From positions 36,505,360 to 36,569,359 of the forward strand of contig NC_052392.1 of NCBI RefSeq assembly GCF_009389715.1: a stretch of DNA of 64,000 nt, in the 5' to 3' direction. The translations under genes were made by a program, and so were the position numbers. The notes beneath the pieces were generated by a model. That model ran no database searches and was not told the DNA's origin. It saw nothing but the letters and a program-made list of their open reading frames with translations. The first letter of the stretch is position 1, and each line of letters opens with the position of its first letter. Below are positions 31,393 through 64,000 of the stretch, piece after piece. Source of the DNA: Phoenix dactylifera. Lineage: Eukaryota > Streptophyta > Magnoliopsida > Arecales > Arecaceae.

Positions 31393-34300
31393 TCAACGGC
31401 CCATCAGAGTTGTGTTTGAAATTATGGGGCAGCTATCAGAATTTGAAGGAGCAGGCACATTTCTTGGAGGAGAATGAAACATTGGAATGGGCATATTGGG
31501 TGGCAAAGCTGGCAATGGGGTATCGAATTTAAGTACATTGATTGCTTGCCTCATGGTCGGCCTTTGATCTCTATCAGGGTGAGCACACCATAGTCCCACA
31601 ACCATCAAGTACACCATTTGTTGCTCATCGAATTCCATCTCTAATCTTCGGTCTGCTGCAGCCAAACATCTTCCATTCCCATAAAGTTCCCAAACCCACT
31701 CCACCAAATTCACTTGATCATCTTTCTCCACTTCAGATGGCTTTCTACCGCTTGCAATTTCTAATATAACTACTCCAAAGCTGAAAACATCAGTCTCCTT
31801 ACTAGCTTTCCCTGTGGAATGTTATGACAATTAATTTAGGCTGTCAAAATAAAACAATGCTTATAGTTGCTCGAATTTAATTCTGTTAAAAATAAAATGA
31901 TCTAGCATTTTCAATGATATTAAAATTTTATAGACATGCCCGAGCAAAGTTTTACGAGTAACTTAGTATTACTCTTTCAACTGAGTGATTTCTCTTTTTG
32001 GTTACTTTAGAGTTTGATGATTTCAATTTGAGGTGTCACATGGTTCTGCAGGAATAACCCAGACTACTAGCCACCAAGAACAAACAATAATTGATTGAGG
32101 CATAAGAATTTGGACCACTACTTTAGCTTGTCGTAAATTTGGTCAAATCAATCAGAAAAATCATAGGTTTGACAGGTTACGTATAACATCATAACTTTAT
32201 GCATATATGCCTTGATATGTGCGAAGAGTTGTTTCTCAAGAAAAAAAAGTGTGGTCATTGAAGTGGTAGCTCAGCGGAACGGGGCCTTACTTTTAACCAA
32301 GTGGTTCCAAGTTCGAAACATATGGGCGTCGATTAAATTGAGAAGACCAGATACTTCCTGCTCGGACACGGAATTTGGAAGGGCTGCTGGTCCGCTGGTA
32401 GCCTCGGTGGTGCCAGATGTGACGTACTCACATAGAGGATTCGTGTCGGAGCCTAGAGGGGTCACCGAGCCGGCCCACGGGTGGGAGAGTATGAGTAAAA
32501 CCGGACGAGGTGCCCAACACACGGTCATTTCTGCCCGCATCGAACATTCTCCTGGTGGGATGAGGGTCCAGTAGGGGTTGCTACGTGGGGGTGGACTTGT
32601 CCCTTCCTCCCCTTTTCCCTTTTGCTTTAGCATAAAAAAAAGAAAAAGAAAAGAAAAGAAAAAAAAAGAAAAGTGTGTATAGAGCAATGATGATTTAAAT
32701 CTCTTACAGAATTCCGTTGTTTATTCAGTAAAATTACTGTATCCTGGTCCTATTTTTATGGAACTCTTAGGTGATTTTGCACATAAATCTTTTCACTTAG
32801 TGTATAAATTGGAGTGGCATATATGTCTTTTCAACAAAAGGGTAAATTAGTACTTTGACACTATATGGTGCCTATTTTAATGAATTAAGTCCTTATCAAC
32901 CACCACATGCGTGCATCTTACTTTTGATGCACTACGATGCGTGAGCACTTCATGCACACATCTGTCATCATGGATCAACTACACATCTACTACATCCTAA
33001 GGTGCAGCTAATGCCATCATGGTGGATGACCACACATCCATAGTGTGTCGGACCTGCAATCTTTATCATCTTTATCCAGGAGAAGTAAAATAGCTATGAT
33101 GCCTTTCAATTTTATTAAGAAGCAATTAAAAGACCTCGCAAAATGTACTATAATGGCATAGATTTTGTTACCTGTAATAGCATACTCCGGTGCAATATAT
33201 CCCCTGGTCCCGGCCAAAACTGTTGTTTCTCGGTTGGAATCATGGTCCACGAGCCTTGCCAATCCAAAATCAGCAAGTTTAGCATTGAATCCTGAATCTA
33301 GCATCAAATTGCTTGGCTTTACATCTCTGTGGATGACGCACTGCTCCCACTCTTCATGAAGATACAGCAACGCTGATGCTAAACCTAGAGCTATTTTGTA
33401 CCTCTCCGGCCATAAGAGCAATCTTGTCTTTTTGTATAAATGGTAATCAAGGCTTTTGTTTGGCATGTACTCGTAAACAAGCAGCAGGTCACCTCTCTCA
33501 TGACAATAGCCTATGAGTTGCACAAGGTTGCGGTGCCTTAGCCGGCTTATGATCGTTACTTCTGATATGTACTCTTTGGTCCCTTGTTTTGAACCCCTGG
33601 AGATCCTTTTAATGGCCACCTCAAGCTGTGAATCATGCAGCACCCCTCTGTATACCTCCCCAAATCCTCCTCCGCCAAGTTTCCTCTCCTCCATAAAATT
33701 TTTTGTAGCACCCTCGAGTACACTGTAAGGAAACTTCCTAGGCCCACTCTCTCTCTCAAATGCAACATTAATCATTGAATCAATAGTCTTATCTACTTCT
33801 TTCTTCCTTCGATCACCTTTCTTGCATAAACATCGCCTCATAAACCACATCAAACCCAACCCACATGGTAAGACCACGGCGCCAATACCCAACACCAAAA
33901 ATATATAAAGATGTCTAGCTCCTGGAGTAGGGCTTGGACTAGAACCATAACCCTGAGAACTCAAATCGGAGGAACTGAAATTCCAGGATACAAGGCTATG
34001 TTGTTCGGTCTTGTTACCTGTGGCAGCTGTGAAGCCAACGGCTACCTTAGCAGGCAGAACCTTCCTCAAGTCAACAACATGAGACAGGCTCCAATTCCTC
34101 GTAGGATCTGAGGCATTACTGAGGAAGACACTCAAATTTTTGGTACTAGCTCTGTAATTAACACACGCGTTGAACGTCGTGTTCTTTCTCATGTTAGCTT
34201 TCAAGTCCAGCTGCACAACCGAGTATATCGTGTGGACGTCGATGCCCATATGGTTGGCGCTTATATCCTTGTACTGAGGATTGAAGAAGGTATCAAACTC

Positions 34301-34795
34301 GACAGCAACGACAGTACTCGGGAGCGTTTTGTTGCCATCAGGACTGGTAAACAGACCGAGAGTTCCGCCGCAGGATAAATCGGGAATTGCCGAAGGGTAT
34401 GACGAGAGGAAGAAGGCGAGTCCATCAGCACTGACTGCTCTTTTGAAGCCATAGATAAAGAAGGAGAAACATGTAGTGAAGTTGATGACGGAAGCTTCAT
34501 CATAGAGAGTCACTGGTTCAGGATATACCATTCTTCCGGAGCTCCTCTTAAGGTTCATGTGGGCCTGGTTCTTGGTGAGTTGGACGATGCTGCCGTCGAA
34601 GAAGGCGTCACCCTGGTAAATCATCTTGCCAATGTTCAGATCCTCACCAGAGTAGTTGAAGGAGAGTGGGCTTGCAAGGGGGATTAGGATGGACAGCAGG
34701 TGGAAGAGGGGCAGCAAAAGTTGGAGGGATGGAAGGGTTCTAGATTTGGAGGGAGCCATGCTTGGTATGTTGGAAAGGAGACATTCCAAGGCCAT
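31393..34795 (-). CDS. L-type lectin-domain receptor-like kinase, copy C
   Basis: Exons on the minus strand are 34795-33172 and 31811-31393. The phase-1 intron is 1360 bp. The protein is 680 aa. Domain order and numbering follow copy B: signal peptide about 1-43, lectin domain 44-275, membrane helix about 297-319, kinase with KLGGGGFGEVYRG, catalytic Lys 396, HRDVKPSN at 489-496, and ADFGLARLVD at DFG 509-511. All catalytic residues are intact. Differences from B cluster in the juxtamembrane part and the kinase C-lobe (ADFG for GDFG, NLMLD for NVMLD). The frame stays open 32 codons upstream to an ATG at 34891, but MALEC is shared by A and C, with MALGC in B. The intron holds a SINE. Confidence 0.93.
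32253..32665 (+). mobile_element. tRNA-derived SINE, copy 3 (in LecRK C intron)
   Basis: The tRNA-like head has A-box TGGTAGCTCAGCGG (about 32264) and B-box GTTCGAAAC (32311). The body shares CGCATCGAACATTC with the other copies, and the tail is A-rich with AAAAG repeats. Flanks duplicate AAAAGTGTG (about 32244-32252 and 32668-32676). The introns of A and B have the single uninterrupted site. It is antisense to the gene. Confidence 0.88.
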
Positions 34796-35292
34796 TTGGT
34801 GGCTTGGGCGGCTAGAGAAGGTGCTTGGCAGACCACACAACGTGAATCGAGTTCTAATCTCGATTCTTCTTTTATGGTTGAAGCTTAGCACGGTGTCTAA
34901 CTACGTAAATTGATTTTTCTCTGGTCTATTAAATTTTGATTTTAATAAATGGTAAAACTTTTGGTCCAGTTTGAATTGTATGAGTTCCCTTCCTCCGATG
35001 ACGATGGTCTCTCTTTTTTTTGAGGGAAACGATATGACGAACCACGGCTCATAAAACTTTTCCTCCTTGACCGACTTAAATTCTAGAAACCAGGTGGCGA
35101 CAAGGTGATGGCCTGCAGCCAATAGAAATTATGTAGTAAAAAATTACAAAGATCTGACTCCTAAATCTTATCCGGCTCTGTCCGTAACGGCTCCATATCG
35201 ATTCAGATGATTCTTTTGGAACATTTAGAAAGTAGATAAGGGATATTAAGTCCAAACCCTGAAAGAAATGAAAAATGGACCATTTTGTAGGG

Positions 35293-37605: not shown

Positions 37606-38474
37606 AGCCACTATCTTGCCTCTCTAAATCAAGGATATTTCGGTCTTTTCTCTCACTCTGCTAACAATACTGTTAGGATGTAGATAGACGACTGGACCAT
37701 ATTGCAACGAAAATAAAGTTTTAGTGGCCATTAGGCCATATTGCAAGGAAAATGAAGTTTTGGTGGCTACCAAAAACCTTATTATTTTTTTAGAATTTAA
37801 GTATAATTATCTCAAATGTGAAGGGGTCTTTGTCTACTTTTATTTAAAAAAAGAATGTAGGGTGACTTTGGCGAAGATTCCATGAGTAGGGGTGGCAACG
37901 AATTGAACGCGCTCAGGTACTAGTCAGGTCAAAAAAAGACCACAACCCACTGTGATAAGGTCTGCGAGGGAGATCCGTTCCTTGGTATTAAATATTCTTG
38001 TGACGCTTTAACAGTTGAAGCGACAAATTTTATAAGAAACAATCGTTACATATCTCTGTGCATTGCAATTATAAGTCTACGCAAGTTCCATTAAGTTTTA
38101 GTGTGGCCCTTTTAAATTAATGACTCATCGTTTCATTACGCCAGCCGATGGAGTACCTGTGCGTATAGCTGTTAAGGTTGTGTTTTGATAGAGGCTGCCA
38201 AAAGAAAACGCCAAATATAACATATAATATAATATAATTTAAGAGCAACGGAGGGCCGGCCGAAGTAACTAGGCGGAAATATTTGTTTCCATGAGAAATG
38301 TTCCATATGACCCAAGCCCGTCTCGGTGAACAAAGAGATGGCGTAAGTCTGAACACAACTTGGCTCAATATAGCCAAGATCAGACCAACTCATATATCGG
38401 CTGGCAATAGCTCCGTATATGTCTATGTGAGAGAAAACGAAGAGCATATAGAATTGTCAGATTGTTGCCATGCC

Positions 38475-38710
38475 CTACCTGCTATGCTACTATACTATAC
38501 CATACAATACTATATTATATTATATTATATTATGTTATGTTATGTTATGTTATGTTATGTTGTACTGTATTGTATTATCTTGTACTGTGCTATGTTATGT
38601 TATATATGTTATATTACATTGTCATTTTAAATTGCATAGTGAGTTATACTATATACTAACCATGCTATACTATATCATTTTATATTATATTATATTATAT
38701 TGTACTAGAG
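38475..38710. repeat. (TTATA)n microsatellite, unit 3
   Basis: Pentamer tract with a run of TTATG repeats at about 38531-38560, then the conserved tail shared with units 1 and 2. Confidence 0.85.
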
Positions 38711-40121
38711 TGTAGCAAAATACTATTGTATAATATAATAGATAGTATACTGTAGTATAGTTATATTAAATTTGTATATTTTGTATGTATTACATAAAAC
38801 ATTGCCGAGCAGGGAGGGGTTAAATTTGATGAGTCTAAGCTTCATCCAAATGTTAATGAAGCCAAAGTTTCTCAACCCAGCCCAACTTGTCGATCCGAAT
38901 CCCATTACCTAGGCCTGCCAGAATGACACAGCCAGGTCCAGTTTCGGGGAAACTCTTGTAATGACAAATCTTTTTTTGATTACTTTAAACTATGATTGCT
39001 CCCTTTGAATTGGCATCGTGCCACTAAATAAGGGCAACTGAATCGTGCAAGGCACCTGAGTGACTAGTGATTTTTTCTGAGTTTCCATAACATTTGCTCT
39101 TTGGATGATTAAAAGGCATGTTAGTTACATTTAATAGGTTATTATTACTTCTACTTGTCTACTGAGGGCTTCATTAATTGGGTATGGCGTGAGAAAAAAA
39201 AGGGGATATGGCTAGATGGTGTGAGAAAAAGGGAGGAGTCCTTCTCTAACTAGGACTCTTAATTAAGAAAAGGATATGGCGTGAAAAATAAATTATGACG
39301 TGAGGAATGGAAAGAGAATGCTGAAACGTGAGGGAAGGATTGGAATGGGAATGAAAAGGGATAACTAAAGAGGATGGATGGAAGAGTCTCACCTTCACTT
39401 AAACTCTTAAAGGGTTGGCGTGAAGAAGAAGAAGGAGTTTCATCTTCACCAACTTCTACCAAGGGCTTGGCGTCTCACCAAGAAAAGAAAAGGAAAGTGT
39501 CTCACTTCCTTCACGAGAGAGGCTCCTAATTTTTTTTGTAAAACTCTATTCTCTGAATTTTATTCTTCAATCTATTCTTTATATAGAGTAGAGGTTGGGA
39601 TAAGTTGGACTCTTACAATCTGAAATTTAAATAACTCCTACTTTAACAAGAACTTCTTTGACTAGGACTCCTATTTGAACTAAGACTCTTACTTGACATG
39701 GACTCTTTTAAATTAAACAATTGACTAAATCAACTAACAAGATAGGACTTCCACTTGACTTGGACTGTTCATGGTGCATGGAATGAGATTCCATGTCTGT
39801 TAGGACTCTTCCTAAATGTCATGAGGACTAAATGACTAGACTCCACACAAACACAAGGACTCTTCAAAGCCTTGGACTCAATGTGATTTAGGCATTGGAC
39901 ACTAACTCAAGAGGATTTGACATGCCCCAAACAAAAGGACTCAATATAACATTGGACACACCCAATGTTGGACCCAAACTCTCTAATTCAAGACTCCTAA
40001 TAAACTTGGACTCTCTAATTGACACATGACTAAGAGTCCAAATTAGCTAGGACTCTTTTACACGACACATGGACCCATTACAAAGCCTCCAAATAAATTA
40101 GGAATCTTCAACGCCTCTAAG

Positions 40122-40305
40122 ACTCAATGTAATTGGGCGTTGAAATACTAGAACCTAATGTAATTAGGTACCGAAATTCTTGGACCCAATGTGTTCTAGT
40201 TCTGAAACTCTTAGACGCAATGTGTGTGTTGGCACTAAAACTCATGGACCCAATGTGTTATGGCATCGGAACTCTTGGACCCAATGTAATTTGGTGCATA
40301 CCCAA
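40122..40305. repeat. Minisatellite, period about 31-33 bp
   Basis: Five to six tandem copies of a unit like AATGTGTTNTGGCAN followed by GAAACTCTTGGACCC. The preceding 39.6-40.1 kb is loosely rich in the same GGACTC word, as if an older and more diverged array continues leftward. Confidence 0.75.
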
Positions 40306-41794
40306 GGAGGGGCCTCAATCTCCGTGCACGCCATATGCTTCGACCCATGCTCCTGCATCAATTCCTCCTGCTGAGAAGAACTTGACTCCGTCAAGTTGGG
40401 GATGATTTGAAGAATCCTGCTTTGATTGGAATCCGTTATATAGTGCGTGCTCAGGTGCAGGCTGGTGCATGCCGGTAGAGTCCTGGTAAAACTGAGACTC
40501 GAGTCTGGTGTGTTGGTGAGCCGTCAGCGGGATGGGTGTGCATGAATGTGGGTCTGGTGTGCACGGGATGCGGGTCTGATGCTTAAGAGATGCAAATCTG
40601 GCGAACGCCGGGAGGCTGCTGCACTCGGTTGCAGACTTGTGCATGGGCGCTGGGCGTGGCATAGTGCGTGGATCAGCTAGTCGCTGCTTGTGCTCCTCAC
40701 GGCTTTGACTAACGATCAGATTTTTTATCTCGAAATCAGATGACATCTCTTCTGAATTTTTAGCACCATCTTTCTTAACAATCGATGCAAACATGTCCCC
40801 AACTTCATGGTTGATCTCCTCGATTCGCCTCATAGACAACACCCTTTGGATTACTAAATTTTTGGGCTTGAAATCAACAATCTGTAGTGGTCAGTATGGC
40901 TCAGGATGAGGCTTCGGTTTCAACTTCATCTTGTTCAGCAACTTGTAAGAGACGATGTTCATCCCGTCCTCATTGTCGATGATGAGGTTCGTGGCTTTGT
41001 TGTTGTGTTCGACACAAACATGGAAGAGGATTTTTTGTGGCACGAACGAAGGAAGGGGCAGCAATGGGAAAGAAGGTCTTGGTGAAGACGATGGTGGGGA
41101 AGAAGGGATAACTAGAAGGTTGGGTAGACTAGATCCCAGAACAAGATCTATGTTATGCTGAATGTCATGCATGGGTGGAAGTTCCCTGGATAGATCCTCA
41201 GGTGTTACATCAGAAAAGTCCTCCAAAATAAACTTGAAATTAGATGGGATTACCTCTGAAATTTCAAATTTTAACTTGTTCGCCTTACTTGCAACCCAAA
41301 AGAACCCTGCGAACAACACAAACGGGCAGATCTGAACCTTCTAGTTCCACCGCAAGCGCTTTTTCCTTGTTGCCTTCCTCCTCTTTTTCAATCTCAGTGG
41401 GTTTAGGAGAAACTTCAGATATCTCCGTGATCTCATTTTCTTCGCACACCAACGTAAATTGTTGGTCTTTGGTGGGGCAAACATTAGCAAAGTACCCTCA
41501 GCCACCATACTTATAGCAGTCGGATTGGCTTCCTCTTTGCGATATAGGACCTTTTTCTTTCTCATTGGTCCTTGCTACTCCTCGCTCTAGATATGGACCC
41601 CTATTTGCAGAAGTTTCAGATCTCATGAAAGGAGGATTACCTCGAGAAAAAGGAACGCTCTTGTTCCTGCGTTCTAAAGGTCCTCACCCAACTTGAGGGC
41701 GACGCTATAGTTGTGCCTCCACAACATCCATCTTTTGGGTCATCACAGCATGTTGATTGGCAATTTTAGCTAGCATCTCCTCTTCTTGTTGATC

Positions 41795-42015
41795 GTTATT
41801 ATAGGGATGCCCGCTTTCTATACTCATGAAGGTAAAATACCTAAGTTGATATCGATCGGCATTGTAGGGACAGCCACTTCTTGTACTCATAAAGGTAGAG
41901 TACCCACATTGATGTCGACCGATGTTGTAGGGATGGCCGCTTCTTGTACTCATAAACGTAGAGTACCCAAGTTGATGTCCGACATTGTAGGGGCGGCCGT
42001 TTCTCGTACTCATAG
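41795..42015 (-). repeat. Tandem repeat of the Gag N-terminus, about 63 bp, four copies
   Basis: On the minus strand the motif MSTRSGxPYN and about ten further residues ending YSTF occurs four times with small changes. The parent element normally has it once. It lies in the gypsy relic and is not a host gene. Confidence 0.75.
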
Positions 42016-42644
42016 TGATCAGCAGAAAATTCGCTCTGATACTACTTGACGCAGTTGGGATGGGAAGGTTGCTGAAGATTGGGGATGGCAGCTGATTTCT
42101 TTCTTCTTCTTTTCTTCCTCTATCAATGGCGGCTAGGGTTTCTTATGGATGGAGGAAGGAGATGAAGGGATGATGGCTAATTGGGTTCATTTGGGTTCAA
42201 TTGGGTGTGGGTTGACTCAATCGTGTGCAAAAATTACTGATGGATTGTGGCCGCAATAGGAAGTGGGCTTAGACTCGCTGTGGGATTGGGTTAGGATGTG
42301 AAGGACTCATGGGTGGCTAGAGATTAGGAGTCCTAATGGAATTAGGACTCTAGGGTTGGCATGAGAAAATAGTATGGCGTGAGATAAACATGGTTGTTGG
42401 TGTGAGATAACAGAAATCCTTCTAGCACAAGGACTCTTAAATGAAAGGATATGGCGTGAGGAAATAGCCAATTATGAATGTACTGAAAAACTAACGTACT
42501 AGATGAGTGAGGACAGATCTCAGAGAGAAGGCAACTGAAGCTCAAGGATGCTCGTAGACGAAAGCACTATGAAAGAAGAGCAAGAGACCTCGAATTGGAT
42601 GATAAAGGAGCCGGGGGCAGCAAATAAAACTGGAGATTAGGGAT

Positions 42645-42907
42645 TGGGGCGACGCCATGCAGATGTACACCTCCATGATCAAAAGTGGGACCGTGCCTAC
42701 CGAGTTCACCTTTGCCAAGCTTCTAACGGTACGGTATGGTGCGCTGCTCTTGCATGATCGAGAGCGGGACCGCGCCTACCGAGTTCACCTTCGCCAAGCT
42801 TCTGACGGTATAGTGTGGCGCGCTGCTCCTGCATGATCAAGAGCGGGATCGTGCCTACCAAGGTTCACCTTTGCCAAGCTTGTGATGGTACGGTGTGGCC
42901 CGCCGCT
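42645..42907 (+). pseudogene. PPR-like gene fragment, tandemly repeated (79-bp period)
   Basis: The plus strand reads MYTSMIKSGTVPTEFTFAK, which looks like one helix pair of a pentatricopeptide repeat. The DNA that encodes it is repeated three times (42677-42755, 42756-42834, 42835-42907). Because 79 is not a multiple of three, the repeats destroy the frame. It cannot encode a working PPR protein. The last copy runs straight into a cytokinin-dehydrogenase fragment on the other strand. The family call rests on one motif. Confidence 0.5.
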
Positions 42908-43232
42908 AGATAGTAGAGGACTGGACCCAGCCGAGATGTGGGCTGGCATGAAGGGCAAGTCGGGAGAGAGAGGGACCGTGGGTCAACCATTTACCGAGTC
43001 GGCGTTGCTCACGAAAGTGAAGCCCTCCACAGAATCGAAGGCAGTCGGCTCGGGCTAGGTCACGAACCACGCGGCATCGCCTGAGTATTCCACGAACCGG
43101 TCATACACCACCCTTATCCATTTCACCGTGCAAGCGACGGGGGGGAGCGGGAAGTGAGCACAAGTGATGACACCGAGCTGGCCGAGGCCACCAAGGGTTG
43201 CAAAGAAGAGGTCGGGGCGTGTGGCAGCGGAG
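42908..43232 (-). pseudogene. Cytokinin dehydrogenase (CKX) gene fragment
   Basis: The minus strand reads [19 protein letters not shown], then [18 protein letters not shown], then AFDSVEGFTFVSNADSVNG. This matches the part of CKX that follows the FAD-binding core (the LGGLGQFGIIT block). CKX enzymes degrade cytokinin. Here only about 110 codons remain, with in-frame stops (after WFVT and after SVNG) and no start or end. It is a dead fragment inside a mosaic of other gene pieces. Confidence 0.8.
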
Positions 43233-43399
43233 CATACGACGCAACGAGGATCGTGGCGACAACATCGTCGTATTCCATCTCCTTTAGGGAGATCTCGCAG
43301 GTGGCGCCCATCTCGACAACAAGAAGCGTGGGGATGGTGCCACTGTAGATGCCACGCTCCTGGCTGCCTCCGCTCATTTGGGGCTCGTGCATTAGCGAA

Positions 43400-43562
43400 T
43401 TGAAGAAGATCGCGAAGCCGACAAAGCTGACGCTCTACTCATACTGGCAGAGCTCGTGCTCACAGCAAATCCAAATTGTCCTCCATCTCAAAGGATTCAA
43501 GTATCTGAACTAAAGGAGATTGCAAAGCCGGCAAAGCTGACTCTCTATTCCCATGGATGGGG
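43400..43562 (+). pseudogene. Zeta-class glutathione S-transferase fragment, duplicated
   Basis: The plus strand reads [20 protein letters not shown], the N-terminal GSTZ strand-helix with the SSC active-site motif, then IQIVLHLKG. A second copy of the first part (EIAKPAKLTLYSH) follows at 43507-43558 without the SSC motif. GSTZ acts in tyrosine breakdown as maleylacetoacetate isomerase. Only about 45 codons are present. Beyond 43562 I do not recognise the plus-strand sequence. Confidence 0.7.
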
Positions 43563-43647
43563 AGGGCACGACCCCGGATGCCACATCCTCCTCGCCGTGT
43601 CAGTCGGCTACAAGACCGTGAGGGCCATAAAGGCGTACATCAGCAAA

Positions 43648-44122
43648 GTTGAAGGCAGAATGTAGGGACTCGAGGCGGTGGTTGAGGACATCGGGGAAGC
43701 AGACGATAAAGGGGAGCTGGAGGCAGTCGAGCATCTCGAACCACTGGAGCTTCCAGGCCACCGAGAGGATCTAGGCCATTGTCAGACCGAACTTGCCCTT
43801 CTTGCCAAATGTTGATCCAAAGTGGCTGGAGTGCCGTGTCCGTAGCTTCACCCGGAGGCTGATCACCGGCCAGACGGTGAGCCTCCGGCCGGTCTCCACC
43901 ATCATGTCGAGCTCCTCCTCTCCTCATCCTTGTAGTCGTTGCAAATAAGGAAGGCATCGGGGCTTCCTCGCACGAGGCAGCTTATGGCACGGAGTAGCTC
44001 CGGCTTGGATCCAGCCTCGAGGCTGAAGCGGAAGGGGGCACCAAACCCGATGATGTCCTCAACGATGAAGCGGTCCTGGTTCATTTGACTAGGTAAACGC
44101 TCTAGTAGTGGGCACCGTAGTT
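43648..44122 (-). pseudogene. Arginine decarboxylase (ADC) fragments in shuffled order
   Basis: Reading the minus strand downward: YGAHYQ-like and [45 protein letters not shown] (44122-43920), then [42 protein letters not shown] (43890-43713), then PFIVCFPDVLNHRLESLHSA (43715-43650). These are unmistakable plant ADC blocks, the first step of the arginine route to putrescine. In true ADC the last block precedes the first; here it is moved to the end. The join falls at a shared LQL, encoded by CTCCAGCTC. A stretch of about 45 residues after KDE is missing and stops are present. It is dead. Confidence 0.85.
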
Positions 44123-44289
44123 GGTGGAGCGGATCTCGTCCCTCGAAATAGGTGACCCGGTCACCGAGTTCCACCTCTCCGACTTCAAGGTCATCGTACG
44201 GATGAAAGGGGATGGGGAGAGGGAAGAAGAGAAATCCAACAATCGAAATTAAGGGTCGGATCAGCTTCTTTTCGAAATCATATTGCCGG

Positions 44290-44640
44290 GATTGTGGCGT
44301 CGTCCGATCAATGGTTGCCGTACATGGGGATCAACCTGGATGTGTTCCTAGAGAGGGAGAAGGAGCTGACCAAATGGTCAGAGAGTGCAGTCGTGCTGCA
44401 GATCTTCTTCAACGAGAAGCTTTTGGGGGGCTTGGTGGCATTGAATTCGTTGAGTTATAGCGGAGAGTTTCATGGTCGACCAGTCTGGACGAGTTCCAGC
44501 CGATCGAGCCTTCCGTCTCCGTCAACTCCCCCATCGTGGATGTCTTCTCCATCGAGAAGTACCTCCGCGATCGGGGTAACAACTTCTCGGCGGCGATCGT
44601 GAAGCGGATCTCATCGCTCAAAGAACTGGGCGAGCCCCAC
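44290..44640 (+). pseudogene. Unidentified gene fragment between two ADC pieces
   Basis: The plus strand has coding-like sequence: [18 protein letters not shown], then IFFNEKLLGGLVALNSL, then after a frame shift near 44475, DEFQPIEPSVSVNSPIVDVF and IEKYLRDRGNNFSAAIVKRI. The composition and clean amino-acid pattern suggest a real host exon, but I do not recognise the family. It lies opposite in strand to the ADC pieces on both sides. Confidence 0.45.
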
Positions 44641-44720
44641 AGCGCAGGAAGAGAGACATCCCAGACGCGGGCATAGCTAGGAGGGGCGAATGCAGCGCCT
44701 ACGCAGGCCAGGGCTGGCAT
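44627..44720 (-). pseudogene. ADC N-terminal fragment
   Basis: The minus strand from 44720 reads MPALACVGAAFAPPSYARVW, then DVSLPAL, the conserved start of monocot ADC. It breaks off after about 32 residues and the next ADC block begins about 500 bp away at 44122, with unrelated sequence between. It belongs to the same captured gene as 43648-44122. Confidence 0.75.
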
Positions 44721-44819
44721 CTCTTCCTGATTACAGTAAAGATGAAAGAAAAAAAAAGTTAGATTTCTCTCGGATTTGAAAAAGAGAGTTTTGGAGCCGT
44801 CGAGGCCGGAGCCCCGGCT

Positions 44820-44821
<2 letters not shown>

Positions 44822-44850
<29 letters not shown>
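44822..44850. repeat. Poly-C run, about 29 C
   Basis: A near-pure cytosine run between the ADC start and the copia LTR. It makes poly-Gly or poly-Pro frames that are not genes. Its length is unlikely to be reliable in an assembly. Confidence 0.9.
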
Positions 44851-44948
44851 ACCCCAAACGAGGCAGGAGAAATAGAGGATCTGCGAGCCATGATGACGAC
44901 CACAGCAAAGACGAAAGAGATGATGGCAGCAATTTACGTGATCGGTGA

Positions 44949-45295
44949 CTCTGATACCATGTTGAAATATTTGGAGAAGAAGAGAAAAACAAAAAGAGAG
45001 AGAGAGAAAAGTAATTTTATTTCTCTATTTACTTCTTCTCATTTGGTATATCTCAGGGGTTATATATACTCGTATATAGACTCCATACATGGAAGATAAT
45101 ATAGGTTGATATAAGATCTCGCTAATAATGAAAAATATTATAGGTGATACAGCTTCTCATATGATCCCTAAAATCACCCTAACAAAATTATGCTAACAAA
45201 GGAAACTAATATTAATTGATATAGAATCACATTGATAAAGAAAAACATTATGAGTGATGCAGGTTGTTATGTGATCACTAAAATTATTCTAATAG
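44949..45295 (-). mobile_element. Ty1/copia-type 5' LTR with primer-binding site
   Basis: In minus orientation the LTR ends ATTTCAACA at 44960, directly followed by the primer site TGGTATCAGAG (complement 44949-44959), which matches initiator tRNA-Met. The LTR start is near 45295 (TTAGAATAATTTTAGTGATC on the minus strand). Downstream, where Gag should follow, the host-fragment mosaic lies instead. I found no partner LTR near 42.5 kb. The element is incomplete. Confidence 0.6.
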
Positions 45296-45299
45296 TATG

Positions 45300-46210
45300 A
45301 ATTTATTAACCAAGCTCGGTTTCAAGAAGAAGAAGAAGAAGAAGGCAGATAGGAAAAAATAAAGTAATGATGGATACGGTGTCTTTGTAATTAACATAAT
45401 AACTTCATTTGGGAATGTCAATTACGTCCCTGGTAGTTGTAGTTTTCATCAGTGGACAGAAAGAACAAAAGAAAGATTCCATAGATAAGATCAAATGCTT
45501 TCATGAGTGTCTTTTCTGGTTTGTTTTTCTGTGAATCTTCCATACCTTTTTTTTCCTAATTAATTTGCTTGACTACGTGGAAGCTCATCGACCATCAAAT
45601 TAATTAAAGACCATCAAACAAAAAGGAGAATATATATATGCATTGTCGAATCTGTAAGACCGCTTTAGAATCCTATAAAGAGCCCATTTTAGAAGCCACC
45701 AAGAAACCGTATGGAATTCTCTTGCCGCTCATTAGAGGACGGCCACCTACCTTCTCCTAGTGGCTGGCCCCTCCTTTGGTTCCCCGCTTGCAGGCATCTC
45801 CGGTGTTTTTCTTTAGTTATATTTTTTTCAGAGTTGCTTTGCATATGGGCCAAGGTCAGCAATGCCACCAAACACTTACCGTCAGCAAACGAGTTGCACG
45901 CTCAATAACTTGGCAAAGAATATCTTAGGGTTTACCTTCCACTAATACACTGCATGGTCGTCCATATAGATGATTACAACCGCTTGTTTCCGAACACTCA
46001 TCTTAATGCACCTTTATAGAAACAAACGATTGTGATTATCTACATGCATAACCACGTGGTGCATATAATTTTTTAGAGTTACTACTAAAACTATGTGCTC
46101 GTGCATATAGATAATCACAATCGTTCGTTACTAAACGCTCATCTTAATACATCTCTATAAAAACAAATAATTGTTGTTATCTACATGCATAACCATGTGG
46201 TGCATGCAAG
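45300..46210. repeat. Upstream block shared by LecRK D and E
   Basis: A (GAA)n run and GGTAGTTGTAG-type words at 45325-45480 match 61855-62000, and AAGCCACCAAGAAA at 45690 matches 62210. Two internal copies of a block of about 110 bp (45965-46070 and 46090-46205, sharing TTATCTACATGCATAACCA) match one copy near 62770-62880. No gene is seen. Confidence 0.7.
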
Positions 46211-46824
46211 ATATAATTTCTCACATCTTAGTGGGTGATATGGTGGAAGCGTTGCATCATTGTTCTCTTTTTTACTTTGATCGTAAGTGGGAGGTGGGAC
46301 CCACCATCAATTTTATTGATGAATGTGTTCATTTACAATGGTTGGTTGGTGGTGCTTCCCTACTTAAAAGAGTTTTGAAGTGAAGTGGTCCTCTTGGTTT
46401 ACAAAAAAAAAAGAGAGGAAAAAACAGTAGTTCACTTGAGTTGTGAAACAGTTCTATGACCACAGCCACACATCTCCTCTCTTCTTGTTCAATCGTTCCT
46501 ATTCAGTCTTCCTTCTGTCTTTCTATTTAGTCAATCCTACCGTCTTTCAAAGCACTTATGATGCTTAAAATGTGATTCTTAGCATTGACTTTGTATTCCG
46601 AAGTCTAGCTTTCGTGCAAGAAGCTTGCTTTCTATTTGGCTGTTACTTTATTATAACATTTACTGGCCATTGTTTTTTAAAAAATAGATTCTCCATGTCT
46701 GTGAGAAAAGAAATTTTGGGCAATGATCTGAGCAAAAAGTCTGTACTTTTTTTTGTTATTTTTAGTTATCTTTCAATATAATATTTAATAATAGCCCTTA
46801 ACTAACTATTTCCATGAAGATATA

Positions 46825-47140
46825 TGTGAGTATGTATTTTGTCTTACATCGGCTATGCACTGGATAGATCTTAAATACTTATAAAGAGCCGGAAAACTCA
46901 AATAATATCGTTTTGCTAGTTTCTTTTTGGATAAGGTACTGGATTGTTGCAAATACTATTAGACCAAACTCAGTTCATAGTCTATGTAGACTAGGAGAAT
47001 TGACCACGGGCTTATCGAGGTATTTATGATTGGATTTGAATGAGACTTTTAGCCTGGCAAGAATACTATAACTTAAACAAGATGAGTATGTAACGACCCA
47101 TGCAAACATATGTTTACATCACTTGTTCTAATCATGACTA
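46825..47140. mobile_element. TRIM retroelement relic, diverged
   Basis: Left terminal repeat 46825-46951 (TGTGAGTATG to GATTGTTGCA), short internal part, then the start of a right repeat at 47089 (TGTAACGACCC). It is a diverged cousin of the TRIM at 62333-62771 and shares TAGATCTTAAATACTTATA-like words. It is old and partly lost on the right. Confidence 0.7.
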
Positions 47141-48666
47141 TCAACGAAAGATACTTTTTCCAAAAAAAATATGGTAGAAATACCACCATCGAAATTAGGA
47201 TTGAAGCCTATACATAAAAGAGAAGGTGCCAATCTACTTGGATAGGAGCTATTACAAAAGTTTTACAAAATACTCTTATACTAATGCACTTTTATACAAT
47301 TATGAATTAAGATAAAATCTCCAACACATTCATCCATTCATCATATCATATCATGATTGGAAAAAGTTGCATTCATCTTTCTAATTCATTGACTTCTAGA
47401 AATTTTAGCACATGATGACCATAAGTTCAAAAAAACACATGGTACACCTGAGTATCTAAGTATTAACTCAATAATATATCCTCTTGTTTCCAAGAGGCTT
47501 GCATCTTGAAGTGGTGTTAACTTCCAAGACTTTAAGTACCCCTCCTTTCCCAAAAATATTCTTTGGAGTAAAAAAACCTAATCCCATGTGCAATAAGCCA
47601 CATTCCTTGCTAATTATATCATTTGAGTAATGTTGATAGACGTCAACTTTGGACCATATTCGATCCCTTCTGTCTCTCATGTTTGTATATGTGACTTTTC
47701 TCTGTTCTCTCAAAAACACCACAAATACCAACCCCACCCCCACAAGTGCAAATACCTCCTAAAAATTCTAGTGAAAGTGGAATTTGAACATAAAATTTAT
47801 GTCATTAGTGCAACACTCGAAAAAATTCCCTAGCAAGCAAGAATATTAATTATAGGTCTCTACTTGAGTCAAGTCGTTAAGATACATGTGTAAGGTCACG
47901 CGCAATAGGACCAGTAGAACATATTACAAAATATATCGAAAATGAACCAACACGACTCAAGTTGAAGAGACATGTGGGCCATACAATGTTACTGCATTGG
48001 GTGCTTCATATTCAGCATCATCCTAAAAGTTGTATTCGGAGAACAACAACAAACCGATCGGCAACTCTCACAAATATCCATCCTGAACCGAACAGAGGCT
48101 GTGTTTGTATGTAAGCAGACTTTGAGTGCTTTGAGATTAGTGCAGGATACGATCCAACGATCAATATTATTAAAAAAGATCAATTATTTTTTTTGTGCGA
48201 AAGATGCAACCTGAATCCTTGTGAACTAGGGTTAGCTCACCCAAGTTCTTCTGGCCAAGGGCTGCCATCTGGACACGCGGCCTTCACTCTCACCAATCCT
48301 GATCATCAAGTTCTTTGTGAAGCTTCGGTGTTTGATTGTGCTATGCAATTATTTATAGCGAATGCTAAAGTGGGCACCAACGTCCATCTTAGTGCCTAGG
48401 GAATAATTTGGTCGATATTGTGGGATTTGCTACGTTAGGGTTTATTATTAAATTTTTCAAATCCAACTTTTTTCCTTTATGTCTCTCTCTTTCTTCTTGG
48501 TGTGAGTCTTCCACTTCCTCTTTATGCTTTGGTTGGTCTATTTCGATGTGCTGCATGATTATCTTTCTTTTAGAAAAGTTGGACAATGGACATCACTAAA
48601 TCCTTTGCCACTCAGAAAATAAATCACCAGATAGCCTTTGAACTCTTCTTACCCTGCAAAACACGC
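47141..48666. other. Intergenic and 5' flank of LecRK D
   Basis: AT-rich. The last 100 bp matches the sequence just before LecRK E (ATAAATCACCA, ATTATCTTTCTTTTAGAAAA), so it is probably 5' UTR and promoter. An open frame from 48586 joins LecRK D but is probably not translated (see LecRK D). No other gene is recognised. Confidence 0.5.
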
Positions 48667-51656
48667 ATGGCTCTCTGCAATTTCTCTCTCCAAGCCATGG
48701 TGCCTCTGCTTCAGTTGTTGTGCTTCATATTCCCCCTAGCAAGCTCTCTCTCCTTCAACTTCTCCCGCTTCAACCAGGACAACACAAACATAGTCTTAGA
48801 TGGCGACGCCTACTTGCTCGACCATGTCATCCAGCTCACCAAGAACCAGCTCGACTCTTCGATCGAGAAGAGCGAAGGCAGAATCACATATTCTAAGCCA
48901 GTGCCTATCTGGGACGAAGCTTCCGACAAGCTCGCCGATTTCAATACATGTTTCTCATTCCTCATCAACGGCTTCAATAAAACAGTAAGTGCCGATGGGC
49001 TGGCCTTCTTCCTTTCATCCTTCCCTTCCAAGATCCCAGATAACTCGTATGGTGGGGCTCTTGGACTATATAACCGTACTGGTGCTAACTCGACCGCGGA
49101 TCATGTCGTGGCCGTCGAGTTTGATACCTTCAAAAATCCAGAGTATAATGATTCAAGTTCCAATCATATCGGAATTGATATTAACACAATCTTTTCCGTC
49201 GCATGGCTCGATTTGAATATTAGCATCAGACAGAAGATCAAGTTTGATGCTTGTGTCAGTTACAATGCCAAGAGTAAAAATTTAACTGTCTTTCTCCGTA
49301 GTGCTACAAACCACACAAGGAATTGGAGCCTCTCTCATGGTGTTGACTTGAGGATGGTCCTGCCGGAAAAGGTAGCCGTTGGCTTCTCGGCGGCCACCGG
49401 TAACCAAGTCGAGACACACAGCTTATTTTCTTGGAATTTCAGTTCCTCTGATTTGAGTCGTCAGGGCTATGGTCCCAATCCACATCCAAGCACCAATTCC
49501 AGGCACAAGCCTAGTTTTAAACTCTTTTGGCTTGCCATTGGCGTTGGGATGCTGCTCTGTGGGCTGATTTTGGTTTGGCTAGGAAGACGTTTATATAATA
49601 AGATGGCTATTACAGGGAAGAAGGAAGAGATGGCCATTGATTCAATAATCCATGATAACTTCGAGAGAGGGAGTGGGCCTAGGAGATACTCTTACAGTGT
49701 ACTTGTGAGTGCAACCAAAAGTTTTTCCCAGGAGGGGAAGCTTGGGGAAGGAGGATTTGGGGAGGTGTACAAGGGAGTACTGCATGACTCCAAACTAGAA
49801 GTGGCCATCAAAAGAATCTCCAGAGGTTCAAACCAAGGAGCAAAAGAGTACATATCTGAAGTCACAATCATAAGCCGGTTACGCCATCGCAATCTTGTGC
49901 AGCTGATCGGCTTTTGCCATGAAAGGGGTGACCTGCTGCTCGTCTACGAGTACATGCCAAACAAAAGCCTTGAATACCATCTCTACAGTGAGGAAAGATT
50001 GCTTGCATGGCCAGAGAGGTACAAAATTGCTCTGGGCTTGGCCTCAGCTTTGCTCTACCTTCATGAAGAGTGGGAGCAGTGTGTAGTCCATAGAGATGTG
50101 AAGCCTAGCAATGTGATGCTAGATTCAGAGTTCAATGCGAAGCTCGGTGACTTCGGATTGGCAAGGTTGATGGACCATGATAGCAATCCAGAAACAACTA
50201 TCTTAGCAGGGACCATGGGATACATTGCACCTGAATATGCCACTACAGGTAATGTGAACTGTTACACTTCAATTTAATTTTACATTATATTTAAATGTAA
50301 AAAAAACTGTTGTTTAAATTGTTCTGCTTCTGCTAAAAAGGGATGGCAGGAGATCACGTTTGACGCATATTGGATGATTGTGGCATCGATCAATATTGTT
50401 GAATGACTAATAATCCAATATGTGTTAAACTTAATCTACCTCCAAGTTAATAATAACAGGATAATCCAATAAAAAGTAAGCTTCAAGCCCTTACCAAACA
50501 CAAAGTTGAGGCTTGAATGGTAGTAATAAGTCTTGATCTTAAGTTTTTTATGACAATGAAATTTTCAATTTTTAATTTATTATTTTGTGTTTTACGAAAA
50601 TACGAGATAATAAAAGTTAGAATAATATGATAACTATTCTTCTTATTCAAGGTGTAGACTTATCATAGTCAAAGTCTTTGGAGCAGGTCATCGCGTCGCT
50701 TCTTATGGGCATGGGTACCTTTACTTTTGAGTCAAGGTCGAATACCTTTAGGAAGATGCTTGGGGCCCAACCATGGTCTCAAAAAGAAAAAAAAAAAAAA
50801 AAGGACTTCATTGCAATGTAACAGTAACACCCATTGATTGGCTTTCACAAAACAAACCAACGTGACCACACAAAATAAAATAAAATAAAATAAAATGAAG
50901 AGATTTTTATTAATTTTTGAATAATTAAATGAGACAATGAGAATCTGGACGTCCTTCTGCCACCGTCCTCTGTGGAGGAAACCCGGCTCTTACCGTTCTC
51001 CTTAACAAGCACGGAACCTCAAGGAATGCATGAAAATTTGAATAGGATGTTCAGGAATTTGAATAGGATGTTCAAGAATTTTTTCTATTGTTGCATTGTA
51101 GCTTAAATTATTTTATGAAATGCATAAATTTTTTAGTTGTACTAAATGAAATGCATCTTAATATGCAACAGGAAAAGCTTGCAAGGAGTCTGACGTCTAT
51201 AGTTTTGGAGTAGTAATCTTAGAAATTGCATGTGGTAGAAAGCCAATTGAAGTAAGGGAGAACCAAGGCAAGGTGAAATTGGTAGAGTGGGTTTGGGAGC
51301 TTTATGGGAATAAGATGTGTTTGAGTGCAGTGGACCAAAAGTTAAAGTTGGAATATGATCCACAACAAATGGAGCAATTGATGATTCTGGGGCTGTGGTG
51401 TGCTCATCCAGATTACACTCGACGACCATCTATAAGACAAGTTATCAACGTTCTAAAATTCAATGCTCCACTGCCAATTTTGCCACCCAAGATGCCAATT
51501 CCGATGTTCTATTCTCCTCCAGTTGAAGCATCTAGTCATTGTAATAGCTGCTCTACTGCTTCAACTCAATCAAGTTGGGGGATTGATGATTGTAAGCCAT
51601 GTCAAACTCAAGCATCAGCACCGTTTCTCTCATTAGATCAGCATATAAGATTTTAG
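48667..51656 (+). CDS. L-type lectin-domain receptor-like kinase, copy D
   Basis: Exons are 48667-50248 and 51172-51656. The phase-1 intron is 923 bp at the same place as in A-C. The protein is 688 aa. Signal peptide 1-27, lectin domain about 28-262 (SADGLAFF near 108-115; VAVEFDTF at 148-155; NHIGID at 166-171), membrane helix about 286-306, kinase from about 350: loop KLGEGGFGEVYKG 358-370, Lys 382, HRD 475-477, DFG 495-497, GTMGYIAPEY. It looks fully active. The start ATG at 48667 is preferred over the in-frame ATG at 48586 because in copy E the upstream ATG is out of frame, and the first residues after 48667 form the signal peptide. The tail after the kinase (SSHCNSCSTASTQSSWGIDD onward) is longer than in A-C. 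It is clearly diverged from the A-C group, less so in the kinase. Confidence 0.94.
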
Positions 51657-53940
51657 CTATACAAGTTTGTGTCCTCTCATCTATGTGAGACTTATTTGGG
51701 TTATGTTTTTTGTAATTGCAATGTAAAAGAAGTCGGTTAAGCACTGAAATAGTTATTTGACATGATGTGATATCAATATTTTGATGAAATTTTGGTCGGG
51801 TTTGTCTTCATCCTATATATTTCATGTGTAATGCCTTTTGCCCCTTATTTGCTCAAGGCACCCTATATGTAGAACTCATTAGCTTGTAATATATGAATTT
51901 GTATTGTTCAACCCAGCCCTTCTATATGAAAGACTTTTCGATTGTGTGACAAATTTTATTCTTTAGCCAACAAAAATAGTGCTTGGCTCTAGAGATGGGG
52001 CTGGTTTGAGTTAGGTGTAAGATTCCTTACCTTTCTTGCCTATTTTCCTATATTGGGTCATAGTTCATAAGCTCTATTTTCTTTACCAAGAGATGAAGTA
52101 TTCAACTAATGAGCAACTCATCTTGATATATAAGTTGTTCCACATTATTACTCGATAAATGGATACAATTAACATGTTTCTATCATAAGAAGGTTCATTA
52201 GATATTTTGCATAAGTAATGCTACAAGGCTCTTATTATTTATACAAGTACAATTTTCTTGCCATGTGGCATCAAAGGATTTATGTAATTGACAAGGTTGT
52301 TGCCAAAAAGGGTTGGTTGATTTAGAAATTACTAAATCGGAATTTATATGATTGATTTCAGCTTTGTTATGTACATGCAACGAGCACCATGAAGCATTTT
52401 CTTTTCCCCTTTCAAAGTGATGAAAAGAAAAGGGGATCAGAAATTTGTTCCTGTCGACATGAGAGAGTTTGCCGGATCACTTGGATATAGTGTCCTGTGC
52501 CTTTTTCTTCAATTCTTCCTCTTTTATTTCTTATTTATTTTTAGGCTTCACAAGTTCTAGTATTAACTAGCCAAATCATAGACCAAACATTAGGTCAACA
52601 TGTTCGACTTGTATAAGATTTCTCTCGTGCTCTACTTAGAACATGCCTGCTAATATCCTTGGTTATGTTAAGATATCTACTATCACTCAAGAACATGTTA
52701 TCTAAGTACCAGCACAATAATAATTGTTATATAATGTACCTACTATGAAAGAAGTCCTCTGTGGCTTTTTTTCCATAATAAAAAAGGAAAAGATGGAGCG
52801 GGCTCACTCTATGAAATAATTTTTAAAGAAAATTCTAGATGGAGCTACTCATAAAGACAAATTGAATAGAGTCAAGCTCCACAAGATACCATGAAACCAC
52901 ATATTTCATGGATGTATAATCTATTTAAAAACATGATACAACCCTGGGAATGGAGAGAATTTATATAGAAAATGGAGTTAAAAATTTGGGTTGAAATACA
53001 TGGTGTTGAAACTTACTATTGTAGTGAAGAGATGCAAAAATAAGTTTTCTTTTTTAATATATGAAAAGATAAGTCAACCATGGATATAGTATCTACTTTT
53101 ATAATGCAAACTTCTGAAGTCTTTGTTTATTTGCAGGTCATTAATCTTCTCTACTGAGCCAACCATTAGTAAGCACGGTTACAACTATACTCTTTCTTTA
53201 TTAAATAACTTTTTATGAGCAATTTTGATTGATAATGTGAAAATATCCACTAAATGCCTTTTACACTTTTCACTCTTCATTAATAAATTAATATTTTTAA
53301 TTAAATTTTATGTTAAATTTAAAAATAAGTTTTCTTCTTATCCACAATGTTATGCTAAATCTTTAAATAGTCTCTAACCAATAAATAATGAGCTAAGAAA
53401 AAAAATAACATTGTTTTCTCTATGCACAAGTTTTTACTATAATAATGGCCAATAATAACTATCCTAGAAGCCTACATCTTATCTCAAATAAATTCAGTTC
53501 AAATCAAGATTTCAATAATAATATTATTTCATTACTAGTGAGGTTACTTGTATAATCAAAAAGAATCAAGGGTGGAAAAATAATGCCGTTATTTACCTAA
53601 ATCACTTTAGACTAAATAATTTTTTTTCCATCAATTCTATATATTACATAAATATTTTCAATAGGTCAAAAATTTAATCTGGAAAATGATTTTATGGATT
53701 GAGTAGTCCAAATAACATTCTAATAACGTTAGTATATACTATAACCGGCTTCCCTGAAACTGGTTACTATCTCAAACCACGGTCCGCGGTAAATGAGTAA
53801 ATCGACGGATGTTATCTCTTCCTTGTATTAGTAATGGTACCTTCTGTTCTATTCCTTTGAAACCCTCCGCTTCTGTTAGAACTTAGAACCTCCCCCTTGG
53901 ACAAAACCTCTCCCTTTTGAATTGAAACGAGAGTTTCCTG
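51657..53940. other. 3' flank of LecRK D and intergenic DNA
   Basis: AT-rich with no recognised coding sequence, no terminal repeats and no SINE. The first few hundred bases are presumably the 3' UTR and polyadenylation region of LecRK D. Confidence 0.5.
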
Positions 53941-54494: not shown

Positions 54495-54971
<477 letters not shown>

Positions 54972-62771: not shown

Positions 62772-63006
62772 ATAGCTTTGCATCTGGATAATCACAACTG
62801 CTCGTTTCTATTATCAGTTCCATTTATCAAGTGCTCATCTTAATGCATCGCTACAGAAACAAATCTTTTGCCCCAGCAAGCAAGCCATTTGTTGCATAAT
62901 TATCTTTCTTTTAGAAAAGCTGCACGATGTACATCACTAAATCCTTTGCCATTCATAAAATAAATCACCAAACAGCCTTCGAATTCTTCTTACCCATCAA
63001 ACAAGC

Positions 63007-64000
63007 ATGGCTCTCTGCAATTCATCTCTCCAAGCCTTGGTGCCTCTGCTTCAGTTGTTGTGCTTCATATTCCCCGTAGCAAGCTCTCTCTCCTTCAACT
63101 TCTCCAGCTTCAACCAGGACAACACAAACATAGTCTACGATGGCGACGCCTTCTTGATCAACCATGTCATCCAGCTCACCAAGAACCAGCTCGACTCTCC
63201 GATCGAGAAGAGCGAAGGCAGAATCGCATATTCCGAGCCAGTGCCTATCTGGGACAAAGATTCTGACGAGCTCGCCGATTTCAATACATGCTTCTCCTTC
63301 GTCATCAATGGCTTCAATAAAACGGTAAGTGCCGATGGGCTTGCCTTCTTCCTCTCATCATTCCCTTCCGAGATCCCAGATAACTCATATGGCGGGGCTC
63401 TTGGACTATTTAACCTTGCTGGTGCTAACACGACCGCGGATCGTGTCGTGGCCGTCGAGTTCGATACCTTCAAAAATCCGGAGTATAATGATTCAAGTTC
63501 CAATCACATTGGAATTGATATTAACACAATCTTTTCCGTCGCATGGCTCGATTTGAATATTAGCATCAGACAGAATATCAAGTTTAATGCTTGTGTCAGT
63601 TACAATGCCAAAAGTAAAAATTTTACTGTGTTTCTCAGTAGTCCTAGAAACCACACATGGAATTGGAGCCTCTCTTATGGTGTTGACTTGAGGATGGTCC
63701 TGCCGGAAAAGGTAGCCGTTGGCTTCTCGGCTGCCACCGGTAACCAAGTCGAGTCACACTGCTTATTGTCTTGGAATTTCAGTTCCTCTGATTTGAGTCA
63801 TCAGGACTATCGTCCCAATCCACATCCAAGCACCAATTCCAGGCATAAGCCTAGTTTTAAACCCTTTGGGCTTGCCATGGGCATTGGGATGCTGTTCTGT
63901 GGGTTGATTTTGGTTTGGCTTGGAAGATGTTTATATAAGATGGCTAGTACAGGGAAGAAGGAAGAGATGGCCATTGATTCATTAATCCATGATACGCTTG
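63007..64000 (+). CDS. L-type lectin-domain receptor-like kinase, copy E (partial)
   Basis: Open from the ATG at 63007 to the window edge, 331 codons. It contains signal peptide (1-27), lectin domain with SADGLAFF, YGGALGLF, VAVEFDTF and NHIGID, membrane helix and the start of the juxtamembrane segment (EEMAIDSLIHD). It is the tandem sister of copy D, and most codons match. The N-terminus is fixed by comparison: an upstream ATG at 62930 matches the one before D but is out of frame here by one base, so the inner ATG is the true start. The kinase lies beyond the window, so catalytic state is unknown. A TRIM lies just upstream and may affect its promoter. Confidence 0.9.
   Translation, partial: MALCNSSLQALVPLLQLLCFIFPVASSLSFNFSSFNQDNTNIVYDGDAFLINHVIQLTKNQLDSPIEKSEGRIAYSEPVPIWDKDSDELADFNTCFSFVINGFNKTVSADGLAFFLSSFPSEIPDNSYGGALGLFNLAGANTTADRVVAVEFDTFKNPEYNDSSSNHIGIDINTIFSVAWLDLNISIRQNIKFNACVSYNAKSKNFTVFLSSPRNHTWNWSLSYGVDLRMVLPEKVAVGFSAATGNQVESHCLLSWNFSSSDLSHQDYRPNPHPSTNSRHKPSFKPFGLAMGIGMLFCGLILVWLGRCLYKMASTGKKEEMAIDSLIHDTL

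Follow-up and report, generated by a model that had tools for sequence, protein, structure and literature searches.

How do fragments of unrelated host genes come to lie side by side, on both strands, within about 2 kb of a plant genome? The question is raised by a 64-kb stretch of the date palm, Phoenix dactylifera (G000:C1:36505360-36569359; hereafter the window), in which the segment from 42.9 to 44.9 kb contains fragments of six identified host genes, for arginine decarboxylase (ADC), a glutaredoxin-DEP protein, a subtilase, a zeta glutathione S-transferase (GST), a cysteine desulfurase and cytokinin dehydrogenase (CKX). We searched the 773-Mb genome with this island and its parts, and consider it very probable that the island represents the interior of a long terminal repeat (LTR) retroelement that is old, truncated at its 3' end and apparently non-autonomous, and in which host mRNAs were captured through template switching by reverse transcriptase.

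Spliced host-gene fragments inside an LTR element

The island is set off by its base composition, with GC contents of 0.573 and 0.538 in the 1-kb intervals 43001-44000 and 44001-45000 and of 0.296-0.525 in the remaining ones. Donor loci for the six captured genes were found elsewhere in the same genome at about 80-91% identity (Table 1). The element is transcribed from the minus strand; the ADC, cysteine desulfurase and CKX pieces are sense to it and the GST, subtilase and glutaredoxin-DEP pieces antisense. The majority of the pieces lie directly against one another or are separated by a few unassigned bases only, and no poly(A) intervenes. Sequences of solved proteins in the PDB were matched by CKX (best E 5.9e-15), zeta GST (4.8e-5) and ADC (3.5e-5), as well as by the translated desulfurase piece itself (1.2e-10). 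Furthermore, Pfam domains were identified in five donor open reading frames (ORFs): the decarboxylase domain of ADC, glutaredoxin (E 1.1e-13, with DEP below the cut-off), the FAD-binding domain of CKX, Aminotran_5 (aminotransferase class V; E 2.5e-85) in the desulfurase, and Peptidase_S8 and PA in the subtilase. The identity of GST is based on the PDB matches of the island piece and not on donor Pfam.

An original prediction from this DNA had recognized at least four unrelated host genes on both strands between 42600 and 44760, and the capture of distinct host genes is borne out by the six donors. CKX, zeta GST and ADC were correctly named on their strands, and a coding-like plus-strand piece listed as unknown is real and corresponds to glutaredoxin-DEP (donor C1124/C505). 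The desulfurase and subtilase PA-domain pieces had been overlooked, and the right end was set too short, since the captured part continues to about 44879. The local duplication of some pieces was confirmed for a series of 79-80-nt units and for the two GST copies. The one gene label that was not confirmed is that of a PPR-like gene, given to the part containing the 79-80-nt units. This part reaches a Pfam E of 0.0015 and 19.1 bits against a cut-off of 30, and of three other copies tested, one gave an E of 0.18 and two gave no match. It recurs across the genome as a repeat belonging to the element family and is frequently accompanied by other family parts. The whole-island genome search, which scored 40 of its 120 first-look candidates and was not a dedicated donor search, retrieved no donor for it, and the capture of a PPR gene is unsupported beyond weak Pfam matches.

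Table 1. Positions in the window of the retroelement parts and the captured host-gene pieces, from the right to the left end of the element.
Feature	Positions	Strand	Remarks
5' LTR	44960-45294	-	TA...CA ends; right boundary at 45294, followed by GTATG; matches family LTR at many loci
Primer-binding site	44947-44959	-	TGGTATCAGAGTC; directly after LTR; same motif follows 5' LTR in L035, L023, L017, L010
Leader common to the wider family	44880-44946	-	44846-44989 matched at 76-81% in L009, L010, L017, L023
ADC piece A (5'UTR, start codon, first codons)	44642-44879	-	ATG at 44720-44718; donor C58 (L004), 87% over 189 columns, plus 19/19 beyond a poly-C run
Chimeric 103-aa open frame (predicted only)	44409-44720	-	from captured ADC start codon, antisense through glutaredoxin-DEP piece
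Glutaredoxin-DEP, upstream part	44471-44636	+	donor L002 2006-1841; 90%
Glutaredoxin-DEP, downstream part	44124-44473	+	donor L002 1878-1501; 81% gaps included
ADC pieces D-C	43713-44134	-	donor L004 ~1230-1716; 73% gaps included, ~84-86% without gaps
ADC piece B	43643-43724	-	donor L004 1718-1799; 88%; on wrong side of D-C
Subtilase (SBT-type) PA-domain piece	43549-43644	+	C447 90%, C29 91%
Zeta GST copy 2 (exon 1 end, exon 2 start)	43503-43551	+	join 43515/43516; 89% over 36 nt to L041
Zeta GST copy 1	43391-43505	+	90% over 88 nt to C14 GST cluster; exon 1/2 join near 43405/43406, exon 2/3 join 43493/43494
Cysteine desulfurase (NFS1-type) piece	43266-43387	-	C19 87%
CKX piece	42913-43242	-	donor C11 (L006) 80-85%; PDB E 5.9e-15
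PPR-like 79-80-nt tandem repeat, family-wide	42622-42907	+	units at 42674-42907
Retroelement 3' core, truncated element end	42471-42621	-	42497-42621 at 83-88% in L030, L033, L035, L036

The captured pieces derive from spliced RNA. Donor introns are gone in 8 of the 8 testable cases, namely one in CKX and two in GST, and, in the related elements described below, two in alpha-tubulin, one in ascorbate peroxidase and two in metacaspase. The CKX donor intron (GTACGT...GCGCAG, ~104 bp) is exactly absent at 43126/43127, and the alpha-tubulin piece lacks two introns; in both genes GT/AG is visible in one donor. For GST, the exon 2/exon 3 join combines paralogs, with the donor site in L041 and the exon 3 start in L047, and the exon 1/exon 2 join, present in both copies, was likewise read with the two loci since the L041 acceptor differs. 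The ascorbate peroxidase and metacaspase introns are known by coordinates only, with 103 bp of donor missing in the former and 585 bp (C31) and 679 bp (C958) in the latter. In the donors of the ADC, glutaredoxin-DEP, desulfurase and subtilase pieces the reading frame stays open along the captured part, and these donors are therefore uninformative on splicing. Two further gaps were rejected as introns: the 64-bp gap in ADC piece D-C and a 142-bp gap in a sugar transporter piece of locus L015, where the donor frame reads through, are both coding deletions.

The minus-strand LTR and primer site that the original prediction had placed at the right end of the island are real, and the LTR, leader and ADC piece A are contiguous. 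We take the primer-binding site to be of the initiator-methionine tRNA type. Homology to the flank of a paralogous lectin receptor kinase gene that lacks the element (61815 onward) restarts exactly at 45295, which is the right end of the LTR. On the left side, element homology ends near 42471, past a deletion: the core shows a displaced match at 42471-42508, with a deletion join near 42497-42508, and the 3' LTR is lost, together with the purine tract that precedes it and the left target-site side. The lack of a second LTR in the window copy is explained by this truncation.

Related elements carry other host genes

A genome search with the segment 44740-45330, which spans the ADC 5'UTR, leader, primer site and LTR, listed 41 matches, with 40 of 913 first-look candidates scored; several of the matches span nearly the entire query. 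In eight other loci (L015 and L030-L036), the ADC 5'UTR piece likewise runs without interruption into the leader and LTR. Among 15 compared element sequences, window copy included, 12 contain part of the ADC 5' segment; it was not detected at the threshold used in L011, L026 and L027. Relatives with two LTRs comprise eight copies, with L010 excluded because its contig nearly duplicates that of L009, and in addition C2 and C8. They are about 1.7-3.1 kb long, and full copies have direct terminal repeats of ~220-390 bp and, where read, tRNA-type primer sites. A purine tract precedes the 3' LTR, in element orientation, in L033, L035, L015 and L023. Perfect 5-bp target-site duplications flank three of the six relatives with both ends read (L015, L035, C2), and L026 matches at 4/5 positions.

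Host pieces were present in all five element interiors searched (window copy, L015, L023, L009, L027), which were picked as long and already loaded and not at random. ADC is common to several elements; the other identified captured genes differ between elements. The L015 interior contains a sugar transporter (donor Pfam E 3.5e-78) and a tubulin, which we take to be of the alpha type (Pfam Tubulin E 2.7e-6, below the cut-off). In L023, ascorbate peroxidase is accompanied by matches to two further loci (C8 93%, C5 89%). The L009 interior has metacaspase (three pieces above the Pfam cut-off), a piece matching a C61 locus, and ADC coding sequence that is 93% identical to the C2 paralog and 84% to C58 and lies beside the old 5'UTR piece. 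L027 contains a P450-like piece (C8, 92%; Pfam E 0.0008, below the cut-off) and a piece matching a C3 locus at 87%. Spliced pieces of at least two host genes within an LTR element are thus found both in the truncated window copy and in its relatives.

Some of these composites exist in more than one copy. The L023 composite has a sister at C14:23985393 (85% over ~950 bp) and the L009 composite has two partial sisters at 91% (C414:124756 and C107:46594; C888, a 99% duplicate contig of C107, was left out of the count). These composites were therefore moved or duplicated after capture. The original prediction had also proposed other copies of the whole island as a means of defining its ends. Within the scored candidates the island in its entirety occurs only once, and its separate parts lead to separate loci.

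Joins, proposed template switching and the alternatives

The order of the blocks contains further clues to the process. In the donor (L004, plus strand) the ADC pieces run D-C-B-A, and in the island they run B, D-C, glutaredoxin-DEP, A. Piece B begins at donor base 1718 and piece C finishes at 1716, and the B/D join shares the 12-bp sequence GGAGCTGGAGGC, a 12-nt direct repeat. The two glutaredoxin-DEP parts are likewise swapped relative to their donor, with a donor overlap of 38 bp, so that two captured genes are permuted as if each template had been copied once round. Microhomology was assessed at six joins, leaving out four with intervening bases that were unassigned or only partly readable. 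The longest shared runs are 6, 3, 12, 7, 2 and 4 nt, and those of 6, 12 and 7 nt are longer than expected from donor positions drawn at random (0.0029, 0/20,000 and 0.00195, respectively).

We infer template switching as the agent, presumably within a virus-like particle, with an autonomous helper and over some number of rounds. Reverse transcriptase copying the element RNA would switch onto host mRNAs, copy some 50-500 nt and switch again, often at short shared sequences, until copying ends on the leader of the element. The capture of the ADC 5'UTR piece would be old and common to the lineage; for the CKX, desulfurase, GST, subtilase and glutaredoxin-DEP pieces and the rest of ADC, no copy other than that of the window showed this arrangement. 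Divergence from the donors is homogeneous across nine fragments (9-18%, P 0.36), which fits one capture period. For ADC and glutaredoxin-DEP, the enzyme may have entered the mRNA, run, jumped back downstream on the same template and halted at its entry point, as on an RNase-H-trimmed or circular RNA; with two cases to go by, this step is speculation.

Several observations weigh against capture by template switching within an LTR element. Half of the six captured genes lie in antisense orientation, and simple minus-strand copy-choice does not yield antisense pieces, which would need switching during second-strand synthesis, antisense transcripts or several rounds. At three of the six joins the shared runs, of 3, 2 and 4 nt, are no longer than chance would give (0.30, 0.75 and 0.08, respectively), and the second gap in metacaspase donor C31 is only 36 bp. 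The similar divergence is also possible if the extant donors differ from the exact sources. A partner LTR, for which the original prediction had already looked in vain, was not found in the 64-kb window apart from two weak partial matches. Neither gag, pol nor a helper was found in the 10 of 70 ORFs of the region scanned by Pfam, and with no pol gene in these ten ORFs the earlier assignment to copia is unconfirmed. Target-site duplications are absent in L033 and L023, and L017, L009 and L027 are not judgeable. The LTRs of L009, L017 and L023 fail to match the window LTR at E 1e-6 while sharing leader, core and repeat, so the family is broad and we prefer the term lineage. Finally, no copy with a subset of the island's own late captures was found, either in the whole-island search or with 43230-43690, where 13 of 13 candidates were scored.

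A wider hypothesis, which we put forward tentatively and would sooner doubt than accept, is that these elements form a gene-trapping lineage whose replication usually ends in the serial capture of host mRNA, that the ADC-derived leader serves as a landing pad to which ADC mRNA is drawn repeatedly, and that back-jumps halting at the first entry point on their template record the arrival of reverse transcriptase on RNase-H-cut or circular host RNA. The landing-pad idea comes from L009, with its coding sequence nearest to another ADC paralog beside the old 5'UTR piece.

Alternatively, the permuted blocks could come from circular templates, either circular host RNA or small circular DNA, in place of back-jumps on linear mRNA. 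The change of ADC order from D-C-B to B-D-C, opened at donor 1716/1718, agrees with this, as does the swapped order of glutaredoxin-DEP, and circular-RNA-derived retrocopies are mentioned for mouse in the text available to us (PMC5408686). However, the 12-nt direct repeat at the ADC join fits strand transfer equally well, an opening within 38 of 506 bp would be expected in about 15% of cases by chance (a rough estimate), and tandem partial duplications, of GST in the window and of metacaspase in L009, show that back-jumps happen anyway. We regard circular templates as unlikely. The metacaspase duplication, read in translation, is a tandem partial copy of the piece within itself (L009:5100-6400).

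It is also conceivable that the CKX, desulfurase, GST, subtilase and glutaredoxin pieces joined singly after insertion, each as a processed pseudogene or a repair patch. The age and truncation of the element speak for this, and no sister copy with these pieces emerged from the whole-island search or from that with 43230-43690. One-by-one addition is nevertheless very unlikely, given the abutting pieces, the lack of poly(A) between them, the homogeneous divergence and the presence of comparable captures in relatives as composites in more than one copy.

The original prediction had left retroelement, Helitron and Pack-MULE open on equal terms. According to the latter two, gene pieces were taken at the DNA level and the LTR element is adjacent by chance. 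Mixed orientation and GC-rich pieces are typical of such elements. Their capture works on genomic DNA and is expected to retain introns, and the loss of all eight testable introns is a strong argument against it. In addition, the eight other loci join the ADC piece directly to leader and LTR, captures sit inside two-LTR copies, and no bounding inverted-repeat arms of at least 20 nt are present in 38000-52000, in line with the earlier failure to see terminal inverted repeats. We therefore reject this origin as highly improbable on the missing introns and the LTR contiguity; the retroelement part of the earlier proposal is strongly favored over the other two. An assembly error or chimeric contig is the least probable explanation of all: near-identical duplicate contigs are present (C107/C888 at 99%; C505/C1124 with matching hits), but pieces 9-18% away from their donors are not misjoined donor reads, and comparable composites occur in other contigs. 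These duplicate contigs are probably two haplotypes that were both retained in the assembly.

Known systems and surroundings

The capture of host mRNA by an LTR retroelement is of a kind already known, of which the palm lineage is an extreme variant in how many genes a copy contains, in its permuted blocks and in the recurrence of capture across the lineage. The comparisons that follow are limited to the portions of the cited sources that were available. Maize Bs1 is likewise an LTR retroelement with pieces of several host genes, with three transduced genes and a chimeric gene (PMC13317346). It differs from the window copy, which has six host genes, mixed orientation and permuted blocks, and related copies with other gene sets. 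GmaRetroS15 of soybean, a terminal-repeat retrotransposon in miniature (TRIM), resembles the palm elements in its LTRs, its 5-bp duplications and the exon-only nature of its captured pieces, which come from three host genes (PMC4717578). Gene-carrying TRIMs (30 elements in seven subfamilies) measure 1,172-1,449 bp, in contrast to the longer palm relatives; date palm TRIMs are listed in the same study, whose gene captures are in Medicago and soybean (PMC4717578).

The mechanism that we favor is similar to the LTR-mediated retroposition model (Tan et al., 2016, as described in PMC5408686), in which template switching between element RNA and co-packaged mRNA takes place at microsimilarities, in theory several times. 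The model as described there does not include a succession of several genes with permuted and antisense blocks, as in the palm element. For rice and sorghum, a survey of annotated genes counted 672 and 1,343 host genes inside LTR elements; its available text describes neither multi-gene mosaics nor join structure (PMC3726574). No report of this palm lineage was found in the open-access literature, to which our search was confined, with many subscription papers outside its scope.

Multi-gene examples in plant LTR elements are few in the literature seen, with three genes each in Bs1 and GmaRetroS15. A lineage with host pieces in every interior searched, and with extant donors at about 80-97% identity, offers many readable joins. 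The capture mechanism thereby becomes testable through genome-wide counts of orientation, microhomology, splicing, piece order and repeated use of one gene. Captures of this type have also left a predicted chimeric open frame, with no Pfam match, beside a cluster of receptor kinase genes.

This cluster is an array of similar long ORFs that are alike over kilobases, at 3918-5744, 20737-22626 and 33020-34900 on the minus strand and at 48574-50274 and 62959-63999 on the plus strand. The frame at 48574-50274, the sole one tested, contains the Pfam domains Lectin_legB and Pkinase and belongs to the lectin receptor kinases. Directly to the left of the element, 41791-42014 consists of about 3.5 units of a 63-bp tandem repeat. 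The segments 39182-39298 and 42372-42477 are 73% alike, one lying at the end of the receptor kinase homology and the other at the truncated end of the element, and their similarity is possibly linked to the truncation. Farther away, 54835-54968 is a perfect 134-bp repeat with a 6-bp period that is its own reverse complement.

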